Shown piece by piece: positions 3-60,254 of a stretch of 64,000 nt of DNA. This DNA comes from Halobacteriales archaeon QH_7_66_36 (GTDB lineage: Archaea; Halobacteriota; Halobacteria; Halobacteriales; Haloarculaceae): the NCBI GenBank assembly GCA_003021175.1, contig PXQV01000017.1, positions 1 through 64,000 on the forward strand. The letters are read 5' to 3'. The notes beneath the pieces are model-generated. The model saw only the letters and a program-made list of their open reading frames with translations. It was not told where the DNA came from and did no database searches. The first letter of the stretch is position 1. Every line of letters begins with the position of its first letter. Made by a program: the position numbers and the translations under genes.

Positions 3-113
3 TCGGGCGCGTGGACCGACCAGCACTCCGAGGAGATGAAACGCGGCATCTCTATCCGTCTCGGCTACGCCGACGCGACGTTCCGGCAGCGACCGGGCGC
101 GAAGCGCCCGTGA
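3..113 (+). pseudogene. Fragment of translation initiation factor aIF2 gamma, broken at its 3' side
   Basis: The frame enters from the window edge and reads [20 protein letters not shown], then GYADATFRQ. This is the switch I region of the aIF2-gamma GTPase, just after its P-loop. The full protein is about 410 residues. Here the family match stops near base 89, the frame continues as RPGAKRP and ends with TGA. Nothing resembling the rest of the GTPase or the two beta-barrel domains follows; instead hairpin-rich repeat DNA begins exactly where homology ends. Since aIF2-gamma is essential, an intact copy should exist elsewhere unless the junction is an assembly artefact. The upstream half cannot be judged because it lies outside the window. 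The family assignment is strong; whether the fragment is expressed is unknown. Confidence 0.75.
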
Positions 114-410
114 GCAGACGAAGCGAGTCCACGATAAGACGAGCGGGAGGGAACGTCGTGACCGACACGCGAGATGCGTGGCCGACCAACGAGAGGCCAC
201 GACGAAGCGAGCGGGAACGAGCGAAGCGAGTGACACGCGAGACGCGTGGCCGACCAGCGAGGTGGCGAAGCCATCTCGGGCAGTCGGCGCAGAACGCCGA
301 CGACAGCGTAGCGGCCTCGCCGCCACGGGCCGTCCGAACGCCGCCATCCGCACGAACCGGTGGGTCAGCACGCGGGCGAACTGCACAGTCAGATTACAGA
401 AGTGAAGTTC
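90..410. repeat. Hairpin-rich non-coding repeat region
   Basis: No credible gene is seen between the aIF2-gamma fragment and base 450. The stretch is a chain of short inverted repeats with tiny loops: 94-110 (7-bp arms, loop GAA), 234-248 (CACGCG/CGCGTG, loop AGA), 259-277 (8-bp arms, loop GAA, one G-T mismatch) and about 283-301 (GTCGGCG/CGCCGAC). The 259-277 module recurs at 37116-37134 and inside the element at 51883-52300, with compensating changes in the arms. This places the region in the same repeat family as the dispersed elements, although I could not find clear TGTTCAGATAA-type ends here. Confidence 0.6.
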
Positions 411-14055: not shown

Positions 14056-14127
14056 GTCGGGGGCGACGTGGGGTGGCTACAAGAACTATCCGGACAGACC
14101 TCGACCGCTGTTCGACGGTGGCGGTAA

Positions 14128-14225
14128 TGTTCACATACGCGGGTCGCCGCTCGACTGCGAAACCGCGCGGGGGCTTTCTACATCACGGTGGTGGCTCATC
14201 CAACTGAATTGCTCTTATCAGAACA
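14128..14225 (+). repeat. Dispersed element, copy A (short, no cargo)
   Basis: The 98-bp copy is bounded by TGTTCACATA (14128-14137) and TTATCAGAACA (14215-14225), which are imperfect inverted ends. It contains GGGTCGCCGCTCGACT after the left end, GGGGGCTTTCTACATC at about 14170-14185, and TGGCTCATCCAACTGAA before the right end. The other internal box (GTGGGACTGAAAGGGGCC) and the hairpin cargo are absent, so it looks like a deletion derivative. Confidence 0.65.
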
Positions 14226-14421
14226 CTACCCTGACGACCCGGACAGGATTTACACCGAGCGAAGCCGCATTTGGTACGTGACCGACGAGTCGGCGGAGCT
14301 GTCGGACGCGGAGATACGGATCCGGCTCCGGTTCCTCCGGATACAGGAGCGGACGGCGAACGTCGAGAACAGGGAAGCCATCGCTCGGAAGATAGCCGAA
14401 CTCGAAGCGCGGCTCGACTAG
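14188..14421 (+). CDS. Small helical protein whose 5' end lies inside a repeat element
   Basis: The 77-residue frame from GTG 14188 reads VAHPTELLLSEHYPDDPDRI, then a charged helix (LSDAEIRIRLRFLRIQ, NREAIARKIAELEARLD) that looks like a genuine coiled-coil protein end. The first 12 or so codons are encoded by dispersed element copy A, whose right end is at 14225. Either the element fused to the gene and supplied its start, or translation begins downstream, for example at GTG 14278. The latter would leave 48 residues. No function is recognised. The 3' end overlaps the convergent small membrane protein by 4 bp. Confidence 0.5.
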   Translation: MVAHPTELLLSEHYPDDPDRIYTERSRIWYVTDESAELSDAEIRIRLRFLRIQERTANVENREAIARKIAELEARLD

Positions 14422-19054: not shown

Positions 19055-19120
19055 CAGACACCCTCCATCGTCATCGATTTTGCCGTCGGCGCTAATAAAC
19101 GTCCGTATCCCGACAGAGGT

Positions 19121-19245
19121 GGTGCCCAGATGCGCGGGGCGTCGCTCGGTCAAGAACCCGTGTCGGGTGGGATCAAAAGAGCCGATCGAGCGACCGGGCG
19201 CTTTCTACCCCCCGCTGTCCGGCTGATCTCCGAACTCACGTATCC
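19121..19245 (+). repeat. Dispersed element, copy B (decayed)
   Basis: Recognisable parts in order are GTGCCCAGATG (left end), GGGGCGTCGCTCGG, GGTGGGATCAAAAGAGCC (variant of the first box), GATCGAGCGACCGGGCGCTTTCTACC (second arm and second box, cargo deleted), and GGCTGATCTCCGAACTCACG, which matches copy C. The right terminus is not recognisable and may have been absorbed into the 3' end of the Usp gene. Confidence 0.5.
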
Positions 19246-20351
19246 GAGTTTTCCATCGCTCGCGTGTATCTGTAGTAGAGCGAGCGCATCGTCCGGTCGG
19301 TATCACGTCCCATCAGGACGGTAACGTTCTTTTCTCCGACCAACGTCTCCTGCACCGGCTCGAACAGTAGGTCGCGCAGTCCGAACTTCCGCTCCGGCGA
19401 GCCAATCGACGTGAAGTCGTGATTCTGCGCCTCTTCGATGATAACAGCAGTCGGGTCCGTGGCCTCACGGAGCTCAGTTTCGAGCTCTACCTCCGAGCCG
19501 AGGACGTGCTCTGTGAACGTCAGCAGGCCTCTCGCATCACTCCGCTCCTCCGCGGACGCGTCCGGGGAAACGACGTGCAGTACCGTAACCGATGCATCGA
19601 ACGCGCGAGCGACCGCCCGAGCGGCCTCCGAAGCGAGCGCAGCGTGCGGCCCTGTCCCCACCGGCAGGAGTATCGACTCGACCGGCTTTGCGGTCGATTC
19701 GGCCAACGAGGCGACGGTATGGCCTTCGACGTCCGGGACGTACAGCGCACCTGTCCCCGCTCGGCCGCCGATGTTCTCCACGAACACGTCACACTCGGCC
19801 TCGTCGACTACTGTATCAATCGTGTTTTTGCCCAGCAACCGGCTCTCCTCGAATCCGGCCCCTCGGAGGAGAAGGACAGCCGTCCCGTTACTGCCGAGCG
19901 CGGCGAGGATCCCTTGTGTCGTGTCGGTCACGACTCGTACCAGCGCGCGCACCGATACCGCTGGGTCGATATCCTCCGCGACGTTCACTATCTGCGCCAA
20001 CTGCGTCTGTCGCTCGGTGACGGTTTCGGGGATAGATCGCTCGTCTCTGTCTCCGTCATCAGACCGCGTGTACTCTCGCACCCGTTCGGTCGTGGTCTCG
20101 TCAGCGACCTCCGTAATCCCAAGCAGGAGCACCCGTCCGTCGTTGTCATTGGCTAGCGCTATCGCCGTCTGAAGGAACCGGCGAGCGTTGATCCCGGTAT
20201 CGCCGTCGAACAGGTCACTGACGACTGGCACTACGACGGTGTAATCCGGCCGACGGATGACCCCTCCACCGTATCCGTGCGAATCCGCCTCGGATTCAGC
20301 TGACACCGCCGGAACGGTAATCGGAACAGTGGCCTCGCTGTTGTCTGACAT
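19236..20351 (-). CDS. Double UspA-domain protein, last gene of the Trk cluster
   Basis: The 371-residue soluble protein has two universal-stress-protein domains (about 36-190 and 208-355). PDYTVVVPVVSD and ESILLPVGTGPHAALASEAA open the two alpha/beta folds. The second keeps a partial G-x2-G style phosphate-binding end (IGSPERKFG, LVGEKNVTVLMG). It begins 2 bp after the trkA stop, so it belongs to the potassium-uptake operon. Usp domains that bind ATP or c-di-AMP accompany several archaeal transporters. A regulatory subunit for TrkH is the natural reading, but no direct evidence is in the sequence. The extreme C-terminus abuts the decayed repeat element. Confidence 0.82.
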   Translation of the reverse strand: MSDNSEATVPITVPAVSAESEADSHGYGGGVIRRPDYTVVVPVVSDLFDGDTGINARRFLQTAIALANDNDGRVLLLGITEVADETTTERVREYTRSDDGDRDERSIPETVTERQTQLAQIVNVAEDIDPAVSVRALVRVVTDTTQGILAALGSNGTAVLLLRGAGFEESRLLGKNTIDTVVDEAECDVFVENIGGRAGTGALYVPDVEGHTVASLAESTAKPVESILLPVGTGPHAALASEAARAVARAFDASVTVLHVVSPDASAEERSDARGLLTFTEHVLGSEVELETELREATDPTAVIIEEAQNHDFTSIGSPERKFGLRDLLFEPVQETLVGEKNVTVLMGRDTDRTMRSLYYRYTRAMENSDT

Positions 20352-31594: not shown

Positions 31595-31647
31595 ACCGGG
31601 CGAACGGGGCGTAGCGGCATAAACGCCGGCTCAGGCGGTAGGGTAAT

Positions 31648-31855
31648 GTTCAGATAACCGGGTCGTCGCTCGACTGACGGCCGCGGTGGGTGGGACTGAA
31701 AGGGGCCGGTCGGTCGCCGACGCCCGCCGACGCAAGGACCGCAGGAGGGAGCGACGCGACCGACGAGGACCGCAGCGAGGCGCGCGAGTCGAGCGACCTG
31801 GGGCTTTCTACACCTCAGTTGCCGACTAGTCTCCGAACTCACCCTCATCAGAACA
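31648..31855 (+). repeat. Dispersed element, copy C
   Basis: The 208-bp copy runs from TGTTCAGATAA (31648-31658) to TCATCAGAACA (31845-31855). It contains GGGTCGTCGCTCGACTG, the first box GTGGGACTGAAAGGGGCC (about 31689-31706), an intermediate-length cargo rich in GACG/CGCAAGGACCGCAGG, then GTCGAGCGACCTGGGGCTTTCTACACC and a right segment that also occurs in copy B. The inner arms pair only partly here. It fills the gap between two minus-strand enolase-family genes and ends 3 bp from the stop of the one at 31859. Confidence 0.75.
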
Positions 31856-31858
31856 CCA

Positions 31859-32995
31859 CTAGTCCACCCGGAACTCCGCGAGGATGTCCTCATCGACCTC
31901 AATACCGATGCCGGGGCGGTCGGGAATCGGCACGCGGTCCCGGTCGTTGGTGATCGGCTCGACAGCGAGATCTTCACGGATCGGGTTCGGCGTGCGGTCG
32001 AACTCCAACAGTGGCTCGCCCGGCAGCGTCGCGAGCACCTGCAGGCTCGCCGCCAGCGCGACCGCACTCCCGAAGACGTGCGGGAACGCCTGCAGGTTCG
32101 CCGACCGCGCCAGCGACGCCACCCGGTCGGTCGAGGTGATGCCGCCGGCGCTGGTCACGTCCGGCTGGAGGTAGTCGACAGCGCCGGCCTCGACGGCACG
32201 GCGGAACTCACCCTCGAACGCCCAACACTCCCCCGCGGCGAGCGACACGTCGAGCGCGTCGTTCAGGCGGGCGTACTGGTCTATCCCCTCGGGTGGAATC
32301 GGCTCCTCGAAGAAGCGCACGTCGAGGTCGGCGAGGCGGCGGCCCACCCACCGCGCGTCGGCGGCGTCGTACGCGTGGTTCGCGTCCGTCAGCAGCGTCA
32401 CGTCGTCACCGACGGCCTCGCGGATGGCCCGGACGAGTTCGATGTCTTCCTCACGGCCCCACGGCGTGTGGCGTGCGAGTCCGATCTTGTTCTTCAGCGC
32501 CGTGAAGCCGGCCTTGACGTGGCCGCGCGCCTCCTCAACGACCGCCGCCCGGAGCGCGTCGAAGGAATCCACGTCGCGGAAGAAGTGGCCGGTGGCGTAG
32601 GCTCGGACGCTGTCGCGGCGGCGACCGCCGAGCAGCGAGGCCACCGACTCGCCGCGTAGCTTCCCGCGGAGGTCCCACAGCGCGATGTCGACGCCCCCGA
32701 CGACGCTCGCGGGCACGTAGGAGTGGTACGAAGACCGCAGTTCGAAGACGAGGTCGTCGTGGATCTGTTCGACGTTCGTGGGGTCGCGGCCGCGGAGCCG
32801 CGGCGCGACGTACTCCTCGACGAGTTCGCGGTTGCCGGCGACGGGGCCCCAACACTCGCCCCAGCCGGTCTGTTCGCCCGCCTTGACCCGGACCAGACAG
32901 TACTCGCGGCTATCTATCCACTTCTGTGCGTTCGCGAACCGCTCGTCCAGCTCGCGGCGGAGCGGAATCGCGGTCACGTCGTCGATGGTTGGCAC
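31859..32995 (-). CDS. Mandelate racemase / muconate lactonizing enzyme family protein
   Basis: The 378-residue enolase-superfamily enzyme has intact catalytic features. The base motif KNK sits in FTALKNKIGL, with metal ligands in LLTDANHAYD, FFEEPIPPEG and YLQPDVTSAGGI, and a late His in FPHVFGSAVALA. This is the arrangement of sugar-acid dehydratases and muconate cycloisomerases, so abstraction of an alpha-carboxylate proton is secure while the substrate is not. The start is taken at the GTG complementary to 32993-32995 (VPTIDDVTAIPL); a longer version would use TTG. It is divergent from the crotonase gene, whose start lies about 60 bp away. Confidence 0.85.
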   Translation of the reverse strand: MPTIDDVTAIPLRRELDERFANAQKWIDSREYCLVRVKAGEQTGWGECWGPVAGNRELVEEYVAPRLRGRDPTNVEQIHDDLVFELRSSYHSYVPASVVGGVDIALWDLRGKLRGESVASLLGGRRRDSVRAYATGHFFRDVDSFDALRAAVVEEARGHVKAGFTALKNKIGLARHTPWGREEDIELVRAIREAVGDDVTLLTDANHAYDAADARWVGRRLADLDVRFFEEPIPPEGIDQYARLNDALDVSLAAGECWAFEGEFRRAVEAGAVDYLQPDVTSAGGITSTDRVASLARSANLQAFPHVFGSAVALAASLQVLATLPGEPLLEFDRTPNPIREDLAVEPITNDRDRVPIPDRPGIGIEVDEDILAEFRVD

Positions 32996-35145: not shown

Positions 35146-37062
35146 ATGAGTGAGGACCACGGGGGGTTCGAGGATGTCCGCGACAACGTCGTGGGCCACC
35201 CGATGGTGAGTCTGCTGTCGTACGCGCGCACCTACTGGCTTCGGCTGACGGTCGGCGTCGTCGCGTCGTTCCTGACGCGGTTCGCCCGACTCGTCCCGCC
35301 CATCATCGTCGCGGCGGCCATCGACCGCGTCATCCGCACCTCCGGCGAGACGGGGCTGTTGACACGCGTCGGCCTGTTGCCGCCCGGCGAGATAACCGGG
35401 CAGGCGGCCCGCCTCGCGCTGTTGGAACAGCTCGTCGTCATCGCCGTGCTCGCGTACGCCGTCCGGTCGATCACCAGATTCACCTCTCGGTATCTCCTGC
35501 AGGCGACCGCCCAGAAGGTGCAGCGCGACCTCCGGGACGACACCTACGACCACCTCCAGCACCTCTCGATGGACTTCTTCGTCGACCACCAGACCGGCGG
35601 GATGATGTCCATCCTCAACAGCGACATCAACCGGCTGGAGCAGTTCCTCAACACGGAGTTTCGCCAGTTCATCCGCGTGGTCGCGACCGTCGGCGGTATC
35701 GCCGTCATCCTGTGGTTCTACTCGCCGAAGCTGGCGCTGATCGCGCTCGCACCCGTCCCGGTCATCGGGCTGGCGAGCGGGCGCTTCCTCACGTGGATCG
35801 AGCCACGCTACAAGTCGATCCGGGAGACGGTCGCGCGGCTGAACACGCGCTTGGAGAACAACCTCGGCGGCGCGGCCGTGATCAAGACGTTCGACCGGTA
35901 CGACTTCGAGCGGGCCCGCGTCGCCGAGCAGAGCGACCGCTACCACGACGAGAAGGTCGCCGCCCTCCGTATCCGGCGCGGATTCTTCTCCGGTCTGCGA
36001 CTGCTGACCGGCATCGTCTTCGTGCTCGCGCTGTACGTCGGCGGGACGGACATCATCACGGCCCCGGAGAGCATCGCGCTGTCGACCGGTGGCTTCGCGC
36101 TGTTCTTCCTCCTGCTCCGTCGGCTCTACTCGCCGATGCGCCGCGTCGGCAAGTCGGCCAACAAGTACCAGCTCGCCAAGTCGAGCGCCGAGCGGGTGTT
36201 CGGCCTGCTCGGCCGCGAGCCGACCGTCACCTCGCCTGCGGACCCTCACCGCCCCGAGTCGGTCGACGGCGGTGTCACCTTTGAAGACGTGACCTTCGCG
36301 TACGGCGACCGCGACCCCGTCCTCCACGACGTGTCGCTCTCAGTGCCCGCCGGCGCGACCGTCGGCCTCGCGGGCGCGACCGGTGCCGGCAAGTCGACGC
36401 TGTTGAAACTTCTCGCCCGGTTCCACGACGTGAACGAAGGAGAGGTCCGGGTGGACGGCGTCGACGTTCGCGACTACGACCTGCAGGCGCTGCGCGACGA
36501 AATCGCCATCGTGGAGCAGAACCCGTATCTGTTTTCGGGGACGGTCGCGGAGAACATCGCCTACGGCGACCGCGACGTGCTCGACGCCGAGTGGTACGGC
36601 CGAGCCGACGAACGCGAGGCGACGGCGGCCCGCGAGCGGGTGCGTGCGGTCGCGGAGGCCGCAGAAGCCCACGAGTTCATCACCGACCTGCCGGACGGCT
36701 ACGACACCCGCGTCGGCGAGCGCGGTGTCAAGCTCTCGGGCGGCCAGCGCCAGCGGCTCGCCATCGCCCGCGCACTTCTGAATGACCCGGCGATCATCAT
36801 CTTCGACGAGGCGACCAGCGACGTGGACACGGAGACGGAGGAGCTGATACAGGAGAGCCTCGACCGACTGGTCGAGGAGCGCACCGCGTTCGTCATCGCC
36901 CACCGCCTCTCGACGATTCAGGACGCCGACGAGATCGTCGTGATGGACGACGGCCGCATCGTCGAACAGGGGAGCCACGACGCCCTGCTCGCGCGCGGCG
37001 GCGAGTACGCCGATCTCTGGACCGCGCAGGCGGATGCGGGACCAGCACCGGCGGACGACTGA
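35146..37062 (+). CDS. ABC exporter half-transporter (permease fused to ATPase)
   Basis: The 638-residue protein has six membrane helices in residues about 20-320, then a nucleotide-binding domain. Walker A is GATGAGKST, the Q-loop is in [20 protein letters not shown], the signature is LSGGQRQR, Walker B is [12 protein letters not shown], and the switch His is in IAHRLS. It must act as a homodimer or pair with another half. An insert between Q-loop and signature (about residues 478-505, [20 protein letters not shown]) is longer than usual. The start ATG 35146 gives [20 protein letters not shown]. Substrate (lipid, drug or peptide) is not predictable. The gene stands alone on the plus strand. 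Confidence 0.9.
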
Positions 37063-37253
37063 TCGGGGCGACTGCCGAACGGCCGGACCGGACGACTGAC
37101 AGGCGGCCGACCAGCGAGGTGCCAACGGCACCTCGGGCAGCCGGCGCGAAGCGCCGACGACAGCGGGAGGCCGCCGAACGGCTCTCGGCCGTGAGCCGGA
37201 ACGACTACCTGACGACCATCTTCGTTGCGCTACAATCTCGGAGCGTCGGACCG
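37063..37253. repeat. Hairpin modules next to dispersed element copy D
   Basis: No gene is seen. Perfect hairpins include GAGGTGCC-AAC-GGCACCTC (37116-37134) and CGGCGC-GAA-GCGCCG (about 37141-37157). The flanking words GCCGACCAGC and GACGACAGCG match the repeat region at 240-310. The module therefore recurs as a unit outside the element ends. Confidence 0.55.
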
Positions 37254-37567
37254 TGTTCAGATACGTGGGTCGTCGCTCGACCGACAACTGCGGTGGGTGG
37301 GACTGAGAGGGGCCGTTATCGGCGGCTGCGCCGCCGATTGCTCGGGAGAGCGCCGCTCTCCCGGTGGACGCTACGGGAAGCCCGGCGTTCGGAAGACGCG
37401 GAGCGTCTTCCGCAGCCCAGCAGCAATCTGCGATTTCTGCGGGTGACGCAAGCCGCGAGGCGACGCCGTCGCCTCGGCCCGCTCGCGCGGGGCAACCGCG
37501 CGAGGACACCCCAGCGAACGCAGTGAGCGAGGCTGGCTCATCCAGCTGAATCGCCCTTATTTGAACA
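37254..37567 (+). repeat. Dispersed element, copy D, with a five-hairpin cargo
   Basis: The 314-bp copy runs from TGTTCAGATAC to TTATTTGAACA (37557-37567). After GGGTCGTCGCTCGACCG and the first box (GTGGGACTGAGAGGGGCC), the cargo contains successive perfect hairpins: 37343-37363 (9-bp arms, loop GCC), 37390-37412 (10-bp, loop GGA), 37456-37476 (9-bp, loop GCC) and 37484-37502 (7-bp, loop GGCAA), plus GGCGGC-TGC-GCCGCC near 37321. The second box is missing. Bases 37383-37530 reappear inverted and nearly identical at 52074-52221. Confidence 0.8.
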
Positions 37568-37619
37568 CCACCCCTTTGTTCACCCGAACGGCTTTGTTCC
37601 GACCCACACAGGAGCGGAC

Positions 37620-38723
37620 GTGACGCGAACTGTCGTCTGTCTGGACGGGCTGGACCCGACGTATCTCGACGCGGTGGAGACCCCGGCGTGGGACACCTTG
37701 GCCGAGCGGGGCCGTCAGGGCACCTGTAAGGCCGTCGTTCCGACGCTGACGAACGTGAACAACGCCGCCATCACGACCGCGAGGCCGCCGACGGACCACG
37801 GCATCCCCGGCAACACGCTGTTCGACCCGGACACCGGCGAGCGGGAGTACGTTCGCTCGGCCGAGCACCGACAAGCGGACACGTGGCTCGGCGACGTGGT
37901 CGCAGACGGGGGCTCGGCCGCAGCCGTTGTCGTGAAGGAGAAGCTCCGCGACCTGCTGTTCGGCGAGAGCGTCGACGCCGCCAGCGCCGAGGAGCCGCCG
38001 GCGCGGCTGGAGGAGGCGGTCGGTGAGGCACCGGGGGTTTACTCCGGCGAGGCGAGCGCGTGGGCGCTCGCGGCGGCCGCACACGTCCGCGAGACGCGGG
38101 AGCCGGACGTGCTGTACGTCTCCACGACGGACGTGATACCGCACAAGCACGAACCGGGGACGGCCCCGGCCGCCGACTGGGTGCAGGCGCTCGACGAGGG
38201 ACTGGCCGCGCTCGCGCGGCCCGGCGACGAACTCGTCGTCACCGCCGACCACGGGATGTCCGCCAAGTCGCTGTGCGTCGACCTGCCGACCGTGCTCGCA
38301 AACGCAGGGTACGACGCCGAGGTAGTCCGGTGTATCCGCGACGCCCACACCTACCACCACCGGAATCTCGGCGGGGCGGCCTACGTCCACCTCGACGGCG
38401 CGGGCGAGGGAGCACTCGACCTGTTGGCCGACGTGGAGGGCGTCGACGCGGTGCTCGACCGCGAGGCGGCCGCCGACAAGTACCGACTGCCGGCCGACCG
38501 CATCGGCGACGCGCTGGTGCTCGGCACGAAAGAGAGCGTCTTCGGGCCCATCGGCGGCGACGCGGAGACGGCCGTCGACGGCGACCCCGACGCGACGCAC
38601 GCGACCGTCGGCCTCCGGTCGCACGGCTCGGCCCACGAGCGGACGGTGCCGTACGTGACGACGACCGGCGCGGCGCTCGACTCGACGGTCGACGCGTGGC
38701 GGGCCGTCAGCGGTCGGGAATAG
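37620..38723 (+). CDS. Alkaline-phosphatase-superfamily hydrolase, phosphonoacetate hydrolase-like
   Basis: The 367-residue cytosolic metal hydrolase has its first metal ligand in VVCLDGLDPTYL and a nucleophile threonine in PTLTNVNNAAITT. The segment GIPGNTLFDPDTGEREY follows, then VSTTDVIPHKHEPG and VTADHGMSAKS with His/Asp ligands, and a last His in RSHGSAHERTVPY. The TN-x-NN and GNT-x-FDP elements are those I associate with phosphonoacetate hydrolase (PhnA), which cleaves a C-P bond to acetate and phosphate. Other phosphodiesterases of the superfamily share the metal core, so the substrate is a hypothesis. GTG start. Its 3' end overlaps the convergent CoA transferase by 17 bp. Confidence 0.75.
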   Translation: MTRTVVCLDGLDPTYLDAVETPAWDTLAERGRQGTCKAVVPTLTNVNNAAITTARPPTDHGIPGNTLFDPDTGEREYVRSAEHRQADTWLGDVVADGGSAAAVVVKEKLRDLLFGESVDAASAEEPPARLEEAVGEAPGVYSGEASAWALAAAAHVRETREPDVLYVSTTDVIPHKHEPGTAPAADWVQALDEGLAALARPGDELVVTADHGMSAKSLCVDLPTVLANAGYDAEVVRCIRDAHTYHHRNLGGAAYVHLDGAGEGALDLLADVEGVDAVLDREAAADKYRLPADRIGDALVLGTKESVFGPIGGDAETAVDGDPDATHATVGLRSHGSAHERTVPYVTTTGAALDSTVDAWRAVSGRE

Positions 38724-48953: not shown

Positions 48954-49024
48954 TGGGACCGCCCGGAATCGAACCGGGATTACGGCGTCCCAAACGCCGA
49001 AGGATACCATTACCCCACGGTCCC
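48954..49024 (-). tRNA. tRNA-Pro (anticodon UGG)
   Basis: Read on the minus strand: acceptor GGGACCG pairing with CGGTCCC, D-arm GGG-TAATGGTA-TCC, anticodon stem CGGCG / CGCCG with loop TTTGGGA (anticodon TGG), a short variable loop, T-arm CCCGG-TTCGATT-CCGGG, and discriminator A. CCA is not encoded. Every stem is fully paired and the length of 71 nt is normal. No intron is seen. A duplicate of its 3' 26 bp lies 116 bp downstream in the direction of transcription. Confidence 0.93.
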
Positions 49025-51826: not shown

Positions 51827-51882
51827 GGGCGCTAATTCGACAGTATCGATAATAAAAGCAGATGGGGATATTAAGCGAGTAG

Positions 51883-52300
51883 TGTTCAGCTAAGAGCGAC
51901 TCTGGAAAATAGTCGGCCACCGAGGTGTAGAAAGCCCCCGGTCGCTCGACCGTCTGCTCGCGGCTTCGCCGCTCGCACGGCCCGTGGAGCGCCGCTCCAC
52001 GCTGTCGTCGGCGCATCGCGTCGACTGTCCGAGGTGGCTCCGCCACCTCGCTGTCTGCGGCTCGCTGCGCTTCTCGCTCACTGCGTTCGCTGGGGTGTCC
52101 TCGCGCGGTTGCCCCGCGCGAGCGGGCCGAGGCGACGCAGTCGCCTCGCGGCTTGCGTCACCCGCAGAAATCGCAGATTGCTGCTGGGCTGTGGAAGACG
52201 CTCCGCGTCTTCCGAACGCCGGGGCCGAATCGAGCGACTGGCCCCTTTCGGTCCACCCCGTACGGGTTCTCGGCCAAGCGACGACCCGCTTGTCTGAACA
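51883..52300 (-). repeat. Dispersed element, copy E (longest), reversed
   Basis: The 418-bp copy has ends TGTTCAGCTAA (51883-51893) and TTGTCTGAACA (52290-52300). Read in reverse it has the first box as GGGGTGGACCGAAAGGGGCC, the inner arms 51938-51949 and 52230-52241 (12 bp, one G-T pair), and the second box GGGGGCTTTCTACACC. The cargo carries hairpins, including 52031-52049 (GAGGTGGC-TCC-GCCACCTC), and the 148-bp block 52074-52221 that is the inverse of 37383-37530. The gap from 51827 to 52456 (630 bp) holds this element and no credible gene. Confidence 0.8.
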
Positions 52301-52456
52301 CTGCCTTCGCCCCGACCCCGGATCATTAGTCCCTACGAGCCACGCACTCGGTATGCACCATACTAGTTTTGTGACCGACTGCGCGACCCAGCGCGCCGGC
52401 AGACGGGTCGACGAGAGCTTGCCGACCTGTGATGACCTGTCGGCGGAGCGGCGACC

Positions 52457-54265: not shown

Positions 54266-54319
54266 AACCGGGGCTGTGGGGTGCTGGCACAAAGTCGTGC
54301 CGGTCGCCCATGGTGATAG

Positions 54320-54521
54320 TGTTCAGGTAAAAGTGCCTCCTGAGAGCAGGAGGACAACAGGGTGTAGAAAGCCCCCAGTCGCTCGACCGGCCGCGGCTCG
54401 CTGCGCGCCTCGCTCACCGCGTTCGCTGCGGTGCTTTCGTTGCCGGGGACGAATCGAGCGACTGGCCCCTTTCAGTCCCACCCGCCCACACCTGCTCGGT
54501 CAGCCACCTCCCATCTGAACA
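54320..54521 (-). repeat. Dispersed element, copy F, reversed, with perfect inner arms
   Basis: The 202-bp copy has ends TGTTCAGGTAA (54320-54330) and ATCTGAACA (54513-54521). Reverse reading gives GGGTGGGACTGAAAGGGGCC, then arms CCAGTCGCTCGA (54375-54386) and TCGAGCGACTGG (54454-54465), which pair perfectly over 12 bp, and GGGGGCTTTCTACACC. The cargo of about 67 bp is rich in GCGCG/CGAGC words (GCTCGCTGCGCGCCTCGCTC). It sits between divergent genes. Confidence 0.8.
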
Positions 54522-54601
54522 TCGCCTCTATAGTCGAACGGAGCCGCGAGCGGCCGCTCCGGAGCGAAACCGCCTTCCGCGCGGGACCGAACCTTCCGGT
54601 C

Positions 54602-59992: not shown

Positions 59993-60028
59993 TTGATAAA
60001 AGATAGAGAATCCCCCGTCGATCAGCGG

Positions 60029-60234
60029 TGCTCAGATAAGACTGGACGAACCGCTGTTGATAGTGTGACGAGCTTGGAAGCCCCCGCCGGCTCGACTCCC
60101 GGGCCTCGCTGCGGTCCTCGTCGGTCGCTCCGCTCCCTCCTGTGGTCCTTACGTCGGCCGGGTTCGCCGAGCCGGCGGCCCCTTCCAGTCCTACCCGACC
60201 GCACTTGTTCGGTCAGCCATCGCTCATCTGACAC
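60029..60234 (-). repeat. Dispersed element, copy G, reversed, with covaried inner arms
   Basis: The 206-bp copy has ends TGCTCAGATAA (60029-60039) and about TCATCTGACAC (60224-60234). The inner arms are GCCGGCTCG (60086-60094) and CGAGCCGGC (60168-60176), a perfect 9-bp stem. These are different bases from copy F's arms but the same pairing, and this is compensatory change. The boxes are variants (GTAGGACTGGAAGGGGCC; GGGGGCTTCCAAGC). The cargo words (GGACCACAGGAGGGAGCG) resemble copy C. Confidence 0.75.
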
Positions 60235-60254
60235 CGCCCGCCGGTCCGTGACAA

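Follow-up and report, generated by a model that had tools for sequence, protein, structure and literature searches.

The short perfect hairpins at 37343-37502 of the window, the 64,000-nt stretch of DNA analyzed here, belong to a MITE with IS6-type ends, whose core of ~115 nt covaries across the class Halobacteria and is predicted to fold as one long irregular hairpin. The core reads GAAAG-GGG-C-[12-bp P1]-GAA-[P2]-GAYGYAAGSACC...-[P1']-GGGG-CTTTC, and the fold consists, in order, of P0 (GAAAG/CTTTC), a GGG/GGG internal loop, a 12-bp P1 of free sequence, P2, a 7x7 internal loop, P3 and a variable tip. The short hairpins themselves lie in ~50-bp cassettes, mostly of two hairpins each, inserted at fixed points of this core. 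The explanation that we favor, by somewhat more than an even chance, is that an IS6-family transposase would move the MITE in trans via its terminal inverted repeats, that selection would maintain the core fold on a single strand, a transcript being the likeliest form, and that the cassettes would be secondary insertions, confined to a small number of fixed positions in the 5' half of the core that the fold can accommodate. The broader proposition, a class-wide structured-RNA family, often multicopy, spread by IS6-type transposition, with folded RNA rather than a gene as payload and two-hairpin cassettes inserting at fixed points, is in our estimate evenly poised.

The host genome is haloarchaeal (2.6 Mb in 18 contigs, 96.7% complete), and the window has 67% GC. 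An initial annotation had described perfect inverted repeats clustered in one copy (copy D), with the same words in a second copy (copy E) and elsewhere. All of the named hairpins near copy D are present, some with a small coordinate shift, and the words shared with copy E were found there on the opposite strand:

37318-37338: hairpin, arms 9, loop 3 (the fifth hairpin, first placed near 37321)
37343-37363: hairpin, arms 9, loop 3
37390-37412: hairpin, arms 10, loop 3
37456-37476: hairpin, arms 9, loop 3
37482-37504: hairpin, arms 9, loop 5 (first given as 37484-37502)
37115-37135: hairpin, arms 9, loop 3 (first given as 37116-37134)
52030-52050, 52100-52122, 52128-52148 and 52193-52213: hairpin words of copy E, on the other strand relative to copy D

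The segment 37343-37502 holds four hairpins against a mean of 0.139 expected from 2,000 dinucleotide shuffles (shuffle maximum, 4), two is the most seen in any of 756 160-bp windows lying outside the elements, and hairpin density within elements is 13.5 times that outside. The objection that random sequence might be equally rich in hairpins is thus answered by both comparisons: the hairpins are real, far above chance and, in this window, mark one element class. The co-varying module, GAGGTGCC/GGCACCTC in one place and GAGGTGGC/GCCACCTC in another, had been quoted correctly as a paired change. The region at 94-301 makes a weaker case: of the hairpins reported there, only those at 94-110 and 283-301 are perfect, and GAGGTGGC-GAA-GCCATCTC carries one G-T. 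A genome-wide search for the hairpin words found that they recur across the genome and also in other genera.

The idea that the hairpins are cargo of an element was borne out, as they sit within a repeated unit. With 37060-37620 as the query, 71 matches were obtained in the genome, and models of both ends, run on ~240 kb of it, recovered at least 55 complete paired copies of 108-503 bp each, a minimum because the copies were drawn from the search matches. The two conserved ends are GTGTTCAGATAA...GGGACTGAAAGGGGCC on the left and GACCGGGGGCTTTC...TTATCTGAACAC on the right, with true tips on both sides of the form GG[CT][AG]GTGTTCAGATAA. Adjacent 8-mers match at six or more of eight positions in 45% of the 55 copies compared to 1.2% with exchanged flanks, and the duplication signal appears at length 8 only, as is characteristic of transposition that duplicates 8 bp of target. 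At 108-503 bp, the element is too short for a transposase and has no ORF. It accounts for a good share of the GC-rich repeats found between genes in this genome. The copies, fragments and parts in the window are as follows:

94..345, plus strand: cassette-like fragment with no recognized ends
14123..14230, plus strand: shortest copy, with both ends and the core mostly missing
19118..19257, plus strand: decayed copy without most of the core
31642..31860, plus strand: cassette-free MITE, core 31691-31808 (96.7 bits, covariance model)
37098..37170, plus strand: cassette-4-like fragment with no recognized ends, containing hairpin 37115-37135
37249..37572, plus strand: copy D, IS6-type MITE with three cassettes and the 3' part of the core (P1' and GGGGCTTTC) deleted, judged from end motifs, copy comparison and the absence of GGGGCTTTC
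37249..37264, plus strand: copy D left terminal inverted repeat GACCGTGTTCAGATAC, compared with IS6 ends
37300..37314, plus strand: copy D core 5' box GGACTGAGAGGGGCC
37315..37365, plus strand: copy D cassette 1, 51 bp, with hairpins 37318-37338 and 37343-37363
37366..37376, plus strand: copy D 5' arm of P1, displaced by cassette 1, its partner deleted
37387..37444, plus strand: copy D cassette 2, 58 bp, with hairpin 37390-37412
37454..37507, plus strand: copy D cassette 3, 54 bp, with hairpins 37456-37476 and 37482-37504
37557..37572, plus strand: copy D right terminal inverted repeat TTATTTGAACACCACC, read from the sequence
51878..52305, minus strand: copy E, with both MITE ends, the 5' box, cassettes 2, 3 and 4, and GGGGGCTTTC
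54315..54526, minus strand: cassette-free MITE, core 54367-54480 (106.7 bits, covariance model)
60024..60238, minus strand: MITE with decayed left end, core 60076-60193 (92.8 bits), P0 GGAAG/CTTCC replacing GAAAG/CTTTC

Because copy D has lost P1' and GGGGCTTTC, the core fold is probably impossible in it, and no intact 8-bp duplication was found around it. Copies D and E have 151 bp in common at 98% identity, spanning cassettes 2 and 3, yet their left parts differ, from which it follows that the copies are mosaics.

The likely driver is indicated by the ends. At PF13610 loci of related haloarchaea, the same end pair, GGCGGTGTTCAGATAA and GGTAGTGTTCAGATAA, lies ~697 bp apart, and several of these ~697-bp IS6 elements are flanked by perfect 8-bp duplications. 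The IS6 family is characterized by 8-bp repeats, GG tips and a TGTT motif, its archaeal members measure 700-750 bp, and a review of the family mentions two MITEs of 227 and 336 bp (PMC7986276). As the ends are shared with IS6 elements, we infer that an IS6 transposase drove the MITE. No match to PF13610 or to the IS6 protein of a relative was found in this 96.7% complete genome, and one genome of the same genus contains broken IS6 transposase copies. The element is an IS6-type MITE, apparently orphaned in this genome; a transposase in the same genome is not strictly required of a MITE. The IS1595 family, which also has an 8-bp duplication and a GG tip, was considered and rejected, being absent from the genome and represented in relatives by copies without such ends. 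Around class-wide cores, IS6-type ends (three or fewer mismatches) were recognized on the right in 28 of 151 (control, 0) and on the left in 19 of 151 (control, 1); with recognizable ends at only about one-fifth of them, some cores may spread or persist otherwise. The proposal that the hairpins are recombinase recognition sites finds no support. Mobility is already explained by IS6-type terminal repeats and 8-bp duplications, the marks of a DDE system, for which hairpins are not required.

Evidence for the core as a folded unit comes mainly from covariation. The two core boxes flank a 12-bp stem of free sequence, P1, and GGGGCTTTC, although absent from the query, lies within 700 bp downstream in 75 of 86 cores. 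Among 156 distinct P1 stems, 132 reach a threshold of 8/12 Watson–Crick pairs; these have 92% Watson–Crick pairs compared to 46% with partners exchanged, the 92% being inflated by the threshold, which treats G-U and A-C equally. P1 mismatches counted without a model are G-U in 46 cases and A-C in 11. Alignment of 60 core sequences gave 22 pairs, 20 of them with double changes, and the covariance model built from it, applied to 100 loci, gave double changes in all 22, a covariation of 0.719 (0.172 ± 0.008 when shuffled) and 66 G-U against 20 A-C. Because the 100-locus alignment is fitted to the model, the model-free P1 count serves as independent evidence. P0 also covaries, with GAAAG/CTTTC swapped for CAAAG/CTTTG, GGAAG/CTTCC or GAGAG/CTCTC.

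The 7x7 internal loop, with its near-invariant bases GAYGYAA/GCAGCGA, retains a tandem of G-A/A-G together with an A-A that is invariant, and column 46 pairs with column 103 as C-G, U-G or U-A in 58 of 60 sequences. A kink-turn was rejected for this loop: the tandem is present but the 3-nt bulge is not, as columns 45-104 and 46-103 pair and leave one bulged base. Single-sequence folding of the three window cores against shuffles gave z values of −1.7, −0.3 and −4.4, moderate support in which two of the three cores are not more stable by a wide margin. The G tracts could possibly form a G-quadruplex, and the GGG/GGG segment may be no more than an internal loop separating P0 from P1. Rfam gave no match for the core in the window, where its sole match is a tRNA gene at 48954-49024 on the minus strand, and among nine core-bearing loci it gave only two unrelated weak matches (E 0.8 and 0.93), neither meaningful.

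Several arrangements of the core were also observed. Two cores stand head-to-head with a spacer of ~22 bp at more than five loci, and an inverted core box lies within 60 bp upstream in 47 of 151 copies. At eight loci, further copies of the 3' half (P1' plus GGGGCTTTC) follow downstream of the core, recurring every 45-75 bp, so that a single 5' arm would have several possible 3' partners; these repeats are few and local, and CRISPR-like arrays were rejected for them. The word CGGCTGGGGAGG or a close variant occurs upstream of several cores (six loci) and may extend the motif.

The covariance model matches in 245 of 292 Halobacteria genomes (84%) and 65 of 77 genera, with copy numbers per genome as lower bounds because at most 12 candidates were scored in each. 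In a phylum-wide sample, all 29 positive genomes belong to the class Halobacteria, and no core was found outside it among the sampled genomes. An exact scan of GTDB genomes agrees, organism-named loci among the matches listed being haloarchaea, and the core part GGGTGGGACTGAAAGGGGC is present in other haloarchaeal families. Culturable species with cores free of cassettes include Haloarcula japonica, H. vallismortis and H. amylolytica. Haloarchaeal plasmids carry the core; a phage collection searched with it gave no match, and a phage origin was set aside. At seven plasmid loci, several of them on plasmids typed MPF_T, the core lies ~500 bp upstream of an OB-fold DNA-binding gene, a conserved site at which the core is kept and the downstream flank diverges. 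About 91% of 94 cores are intergenic according to a simple gene finder, and their orientation relative to genes is unbiased (>M> 28, <M< 20, >M< 20, <M> 18).

The cassettes behave differently from the core in their pairing statistics. Where cassettes are absent, the inner length of copies in this genome is close to 91 nt; the 51 bp of cassette 1 are inserted right after GGGGCC and move the P1 arm, otherwise at position 1, to position 52. The P1 match is alike with cassettes (9.1/11) and without (8.9/11), although placing the arm by its best match somewhat favors long inserts; judged by these matches, P1 can still pair in most cassette copies. In other genera, cassette 1 occupies the same or a second fixed core point and has a different first stem that is still paired (ATCGGCGGC, TCACGGCGGC, CCGCGGCGC, GCCGGCGC and others). 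Its second hairpin is also found alone elsewhere. The pattern CTCGGGAGAGC-NNN-GCTCTCCCGGTG occurs in 28 of 292 genomes (the reversed pattern in none); many genera also have it away from the core, in some cases with T runs after it. Stand-alone hairpins of this pattern with T-rich sequence after them look terminator-like at five loci. Cassette stems have 22 G-U against 13 A-C (P = 0.18), hence no strand bias, and cassette loops in copies of this genome vary more than the stems, with reverse-complement pairs (GGA/TCC, GGC/GCC and TGC/GCA) as if inverted. Stable-DNA GNA triloops were rejected, as the loops are too varied. The suggestion that structure is conserved through compensatory change thus stands insofar as paired changes keep the hairpins, but the strongest conservation lies in the core rather than in the cassettes.

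The wobble asymmetry of the core indicates that a single strand is under selection in folded form, either as RNA or as ssDNA, and the bias does not separate these two. A cruciform of both strands, one of the conserved forms suggested earlier, agrees poorly with it, as such strand specificity is expected of RNA or ssDNA. Between these two molecules we lean modestly toward RNA; the folded strand would then be the GACTGAAAGGGG strand of the core. The core might instead work as ssDNA: a hairpin extruded from one strand in replication, conjugation or repair would be a nick or assembly site to which a nuclease, a recombinase or an ssDNA-binding protein binds. We regard this as possible but rather unlikely. 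G-T is the most tolerated mismatch in DNA too, and ssDNA would account for the wobble bias of one strand no less well than RNA. Cores have no preferred orientation relative to genes, which speaks against a simple role in flanking mRNAs and leaves room for the ssDNA reading; the conserved plasmid site upstream of the OB-fold gene can be added in favor of that reading. attC sites work as hairpins of variable sequence and fixed shape, a combination that the core shares. However, IS6 ends and 8-bp duplications already account for movement, the near-invariant internal loop is more typical of RNA, and the ssDNA reading names no partner enzyme.

A process without selection on the fold, in which replication template switching corrects one palindrome arm from the other, is a fair alternative for the cassettes because their stems, near-perfect, are unbiased between strands and their hypervariable loops include reverse-complement pairs. 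As an account of the whole it is improbable: it predicts no excess of G-U over A-C, yet the P1 ratio is 46:11, and it would not keep an asymmetric internal loop and bulges across 65 genera. Least probable of all, in our judgment, is that the hairpin words are REP-like palindromic units and the substrate of a RAYT-type transposase; the occurrence of CTCGGGAGAGC-NNN-GCTCTCCCGGTG outside the core, with no genome matching the reversed pattern, is what such units might produce, but the words examined in this genome lie in elements with IS6-type ends and duplications, and entry at fixed core positions is unlike REP. Under the preferred reading, an IS6-driven MITE with a selected core fold, our guess is that the RNA would act locally on the transcripts that receive copies, through folding, processing or insulation, and that such local action could let copies persist between genes.

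A covarying fold of ~115 nt in 84% of sampled Halobacteria would rank among the most widespread unexplained structured elements of archaea. Its union with a MITE raises the direct question of whether selection can act on an RNA as the payload of a transposon, and, as P1 varies between copies while the fold is constant, the copies provide ready-made compensatory variants for tests.

Like IS6 insertion sequences and their MITEs (PMC7986276), the element has GG-tipped terminal repeats with TGTT and 8-bp duplications and, like the MITEs, no ORF; it differs in carrying a conserved structured core and hairpin cassettes. The MITEs, PATEs and SMRs of Haloquadratum walsbyi are likewise short, transposase-free, intergenic mobile repeats of haloarchaea, sometimes with palindromes, and the available part of their description (PMC3119063) reports no conserved fold for them. 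According to the same part of that source, PATEs lack terminal inverted repeats and duplication, and SMRs lack a duplication and have terminal repeats with no known related transposon (PMC3119063); on this basis the present element, with its IS6-related terminal inverted repeats and 8-bp duplications, was assigned to neither. Bacterial REP/BIME sequences are also GC-rich intergenic palindromes, often paired, whereas the hairpin pairs here are inserts in a larger transposon. Mitochondrial DNA has mobile double-hairpin elements, short units of two adjacent hairpins, which differ from the cassettes in host, context and insertion points. With structured RNA motifs from comparative genomics, the core shares strong covariation, a conserved internal loop, and variable stems and tip; it differs in sitting in a transposon, in many copies, without an Rfam match in the window or the nine loci. 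No published description of the core was found in the open-access literature. The parts have known kin in IS6 MITEs, haloarchaeal short repeats and REP-like palindromes, and the core appears to be an RNA-like element, so far undescribed, that a transposon carries.
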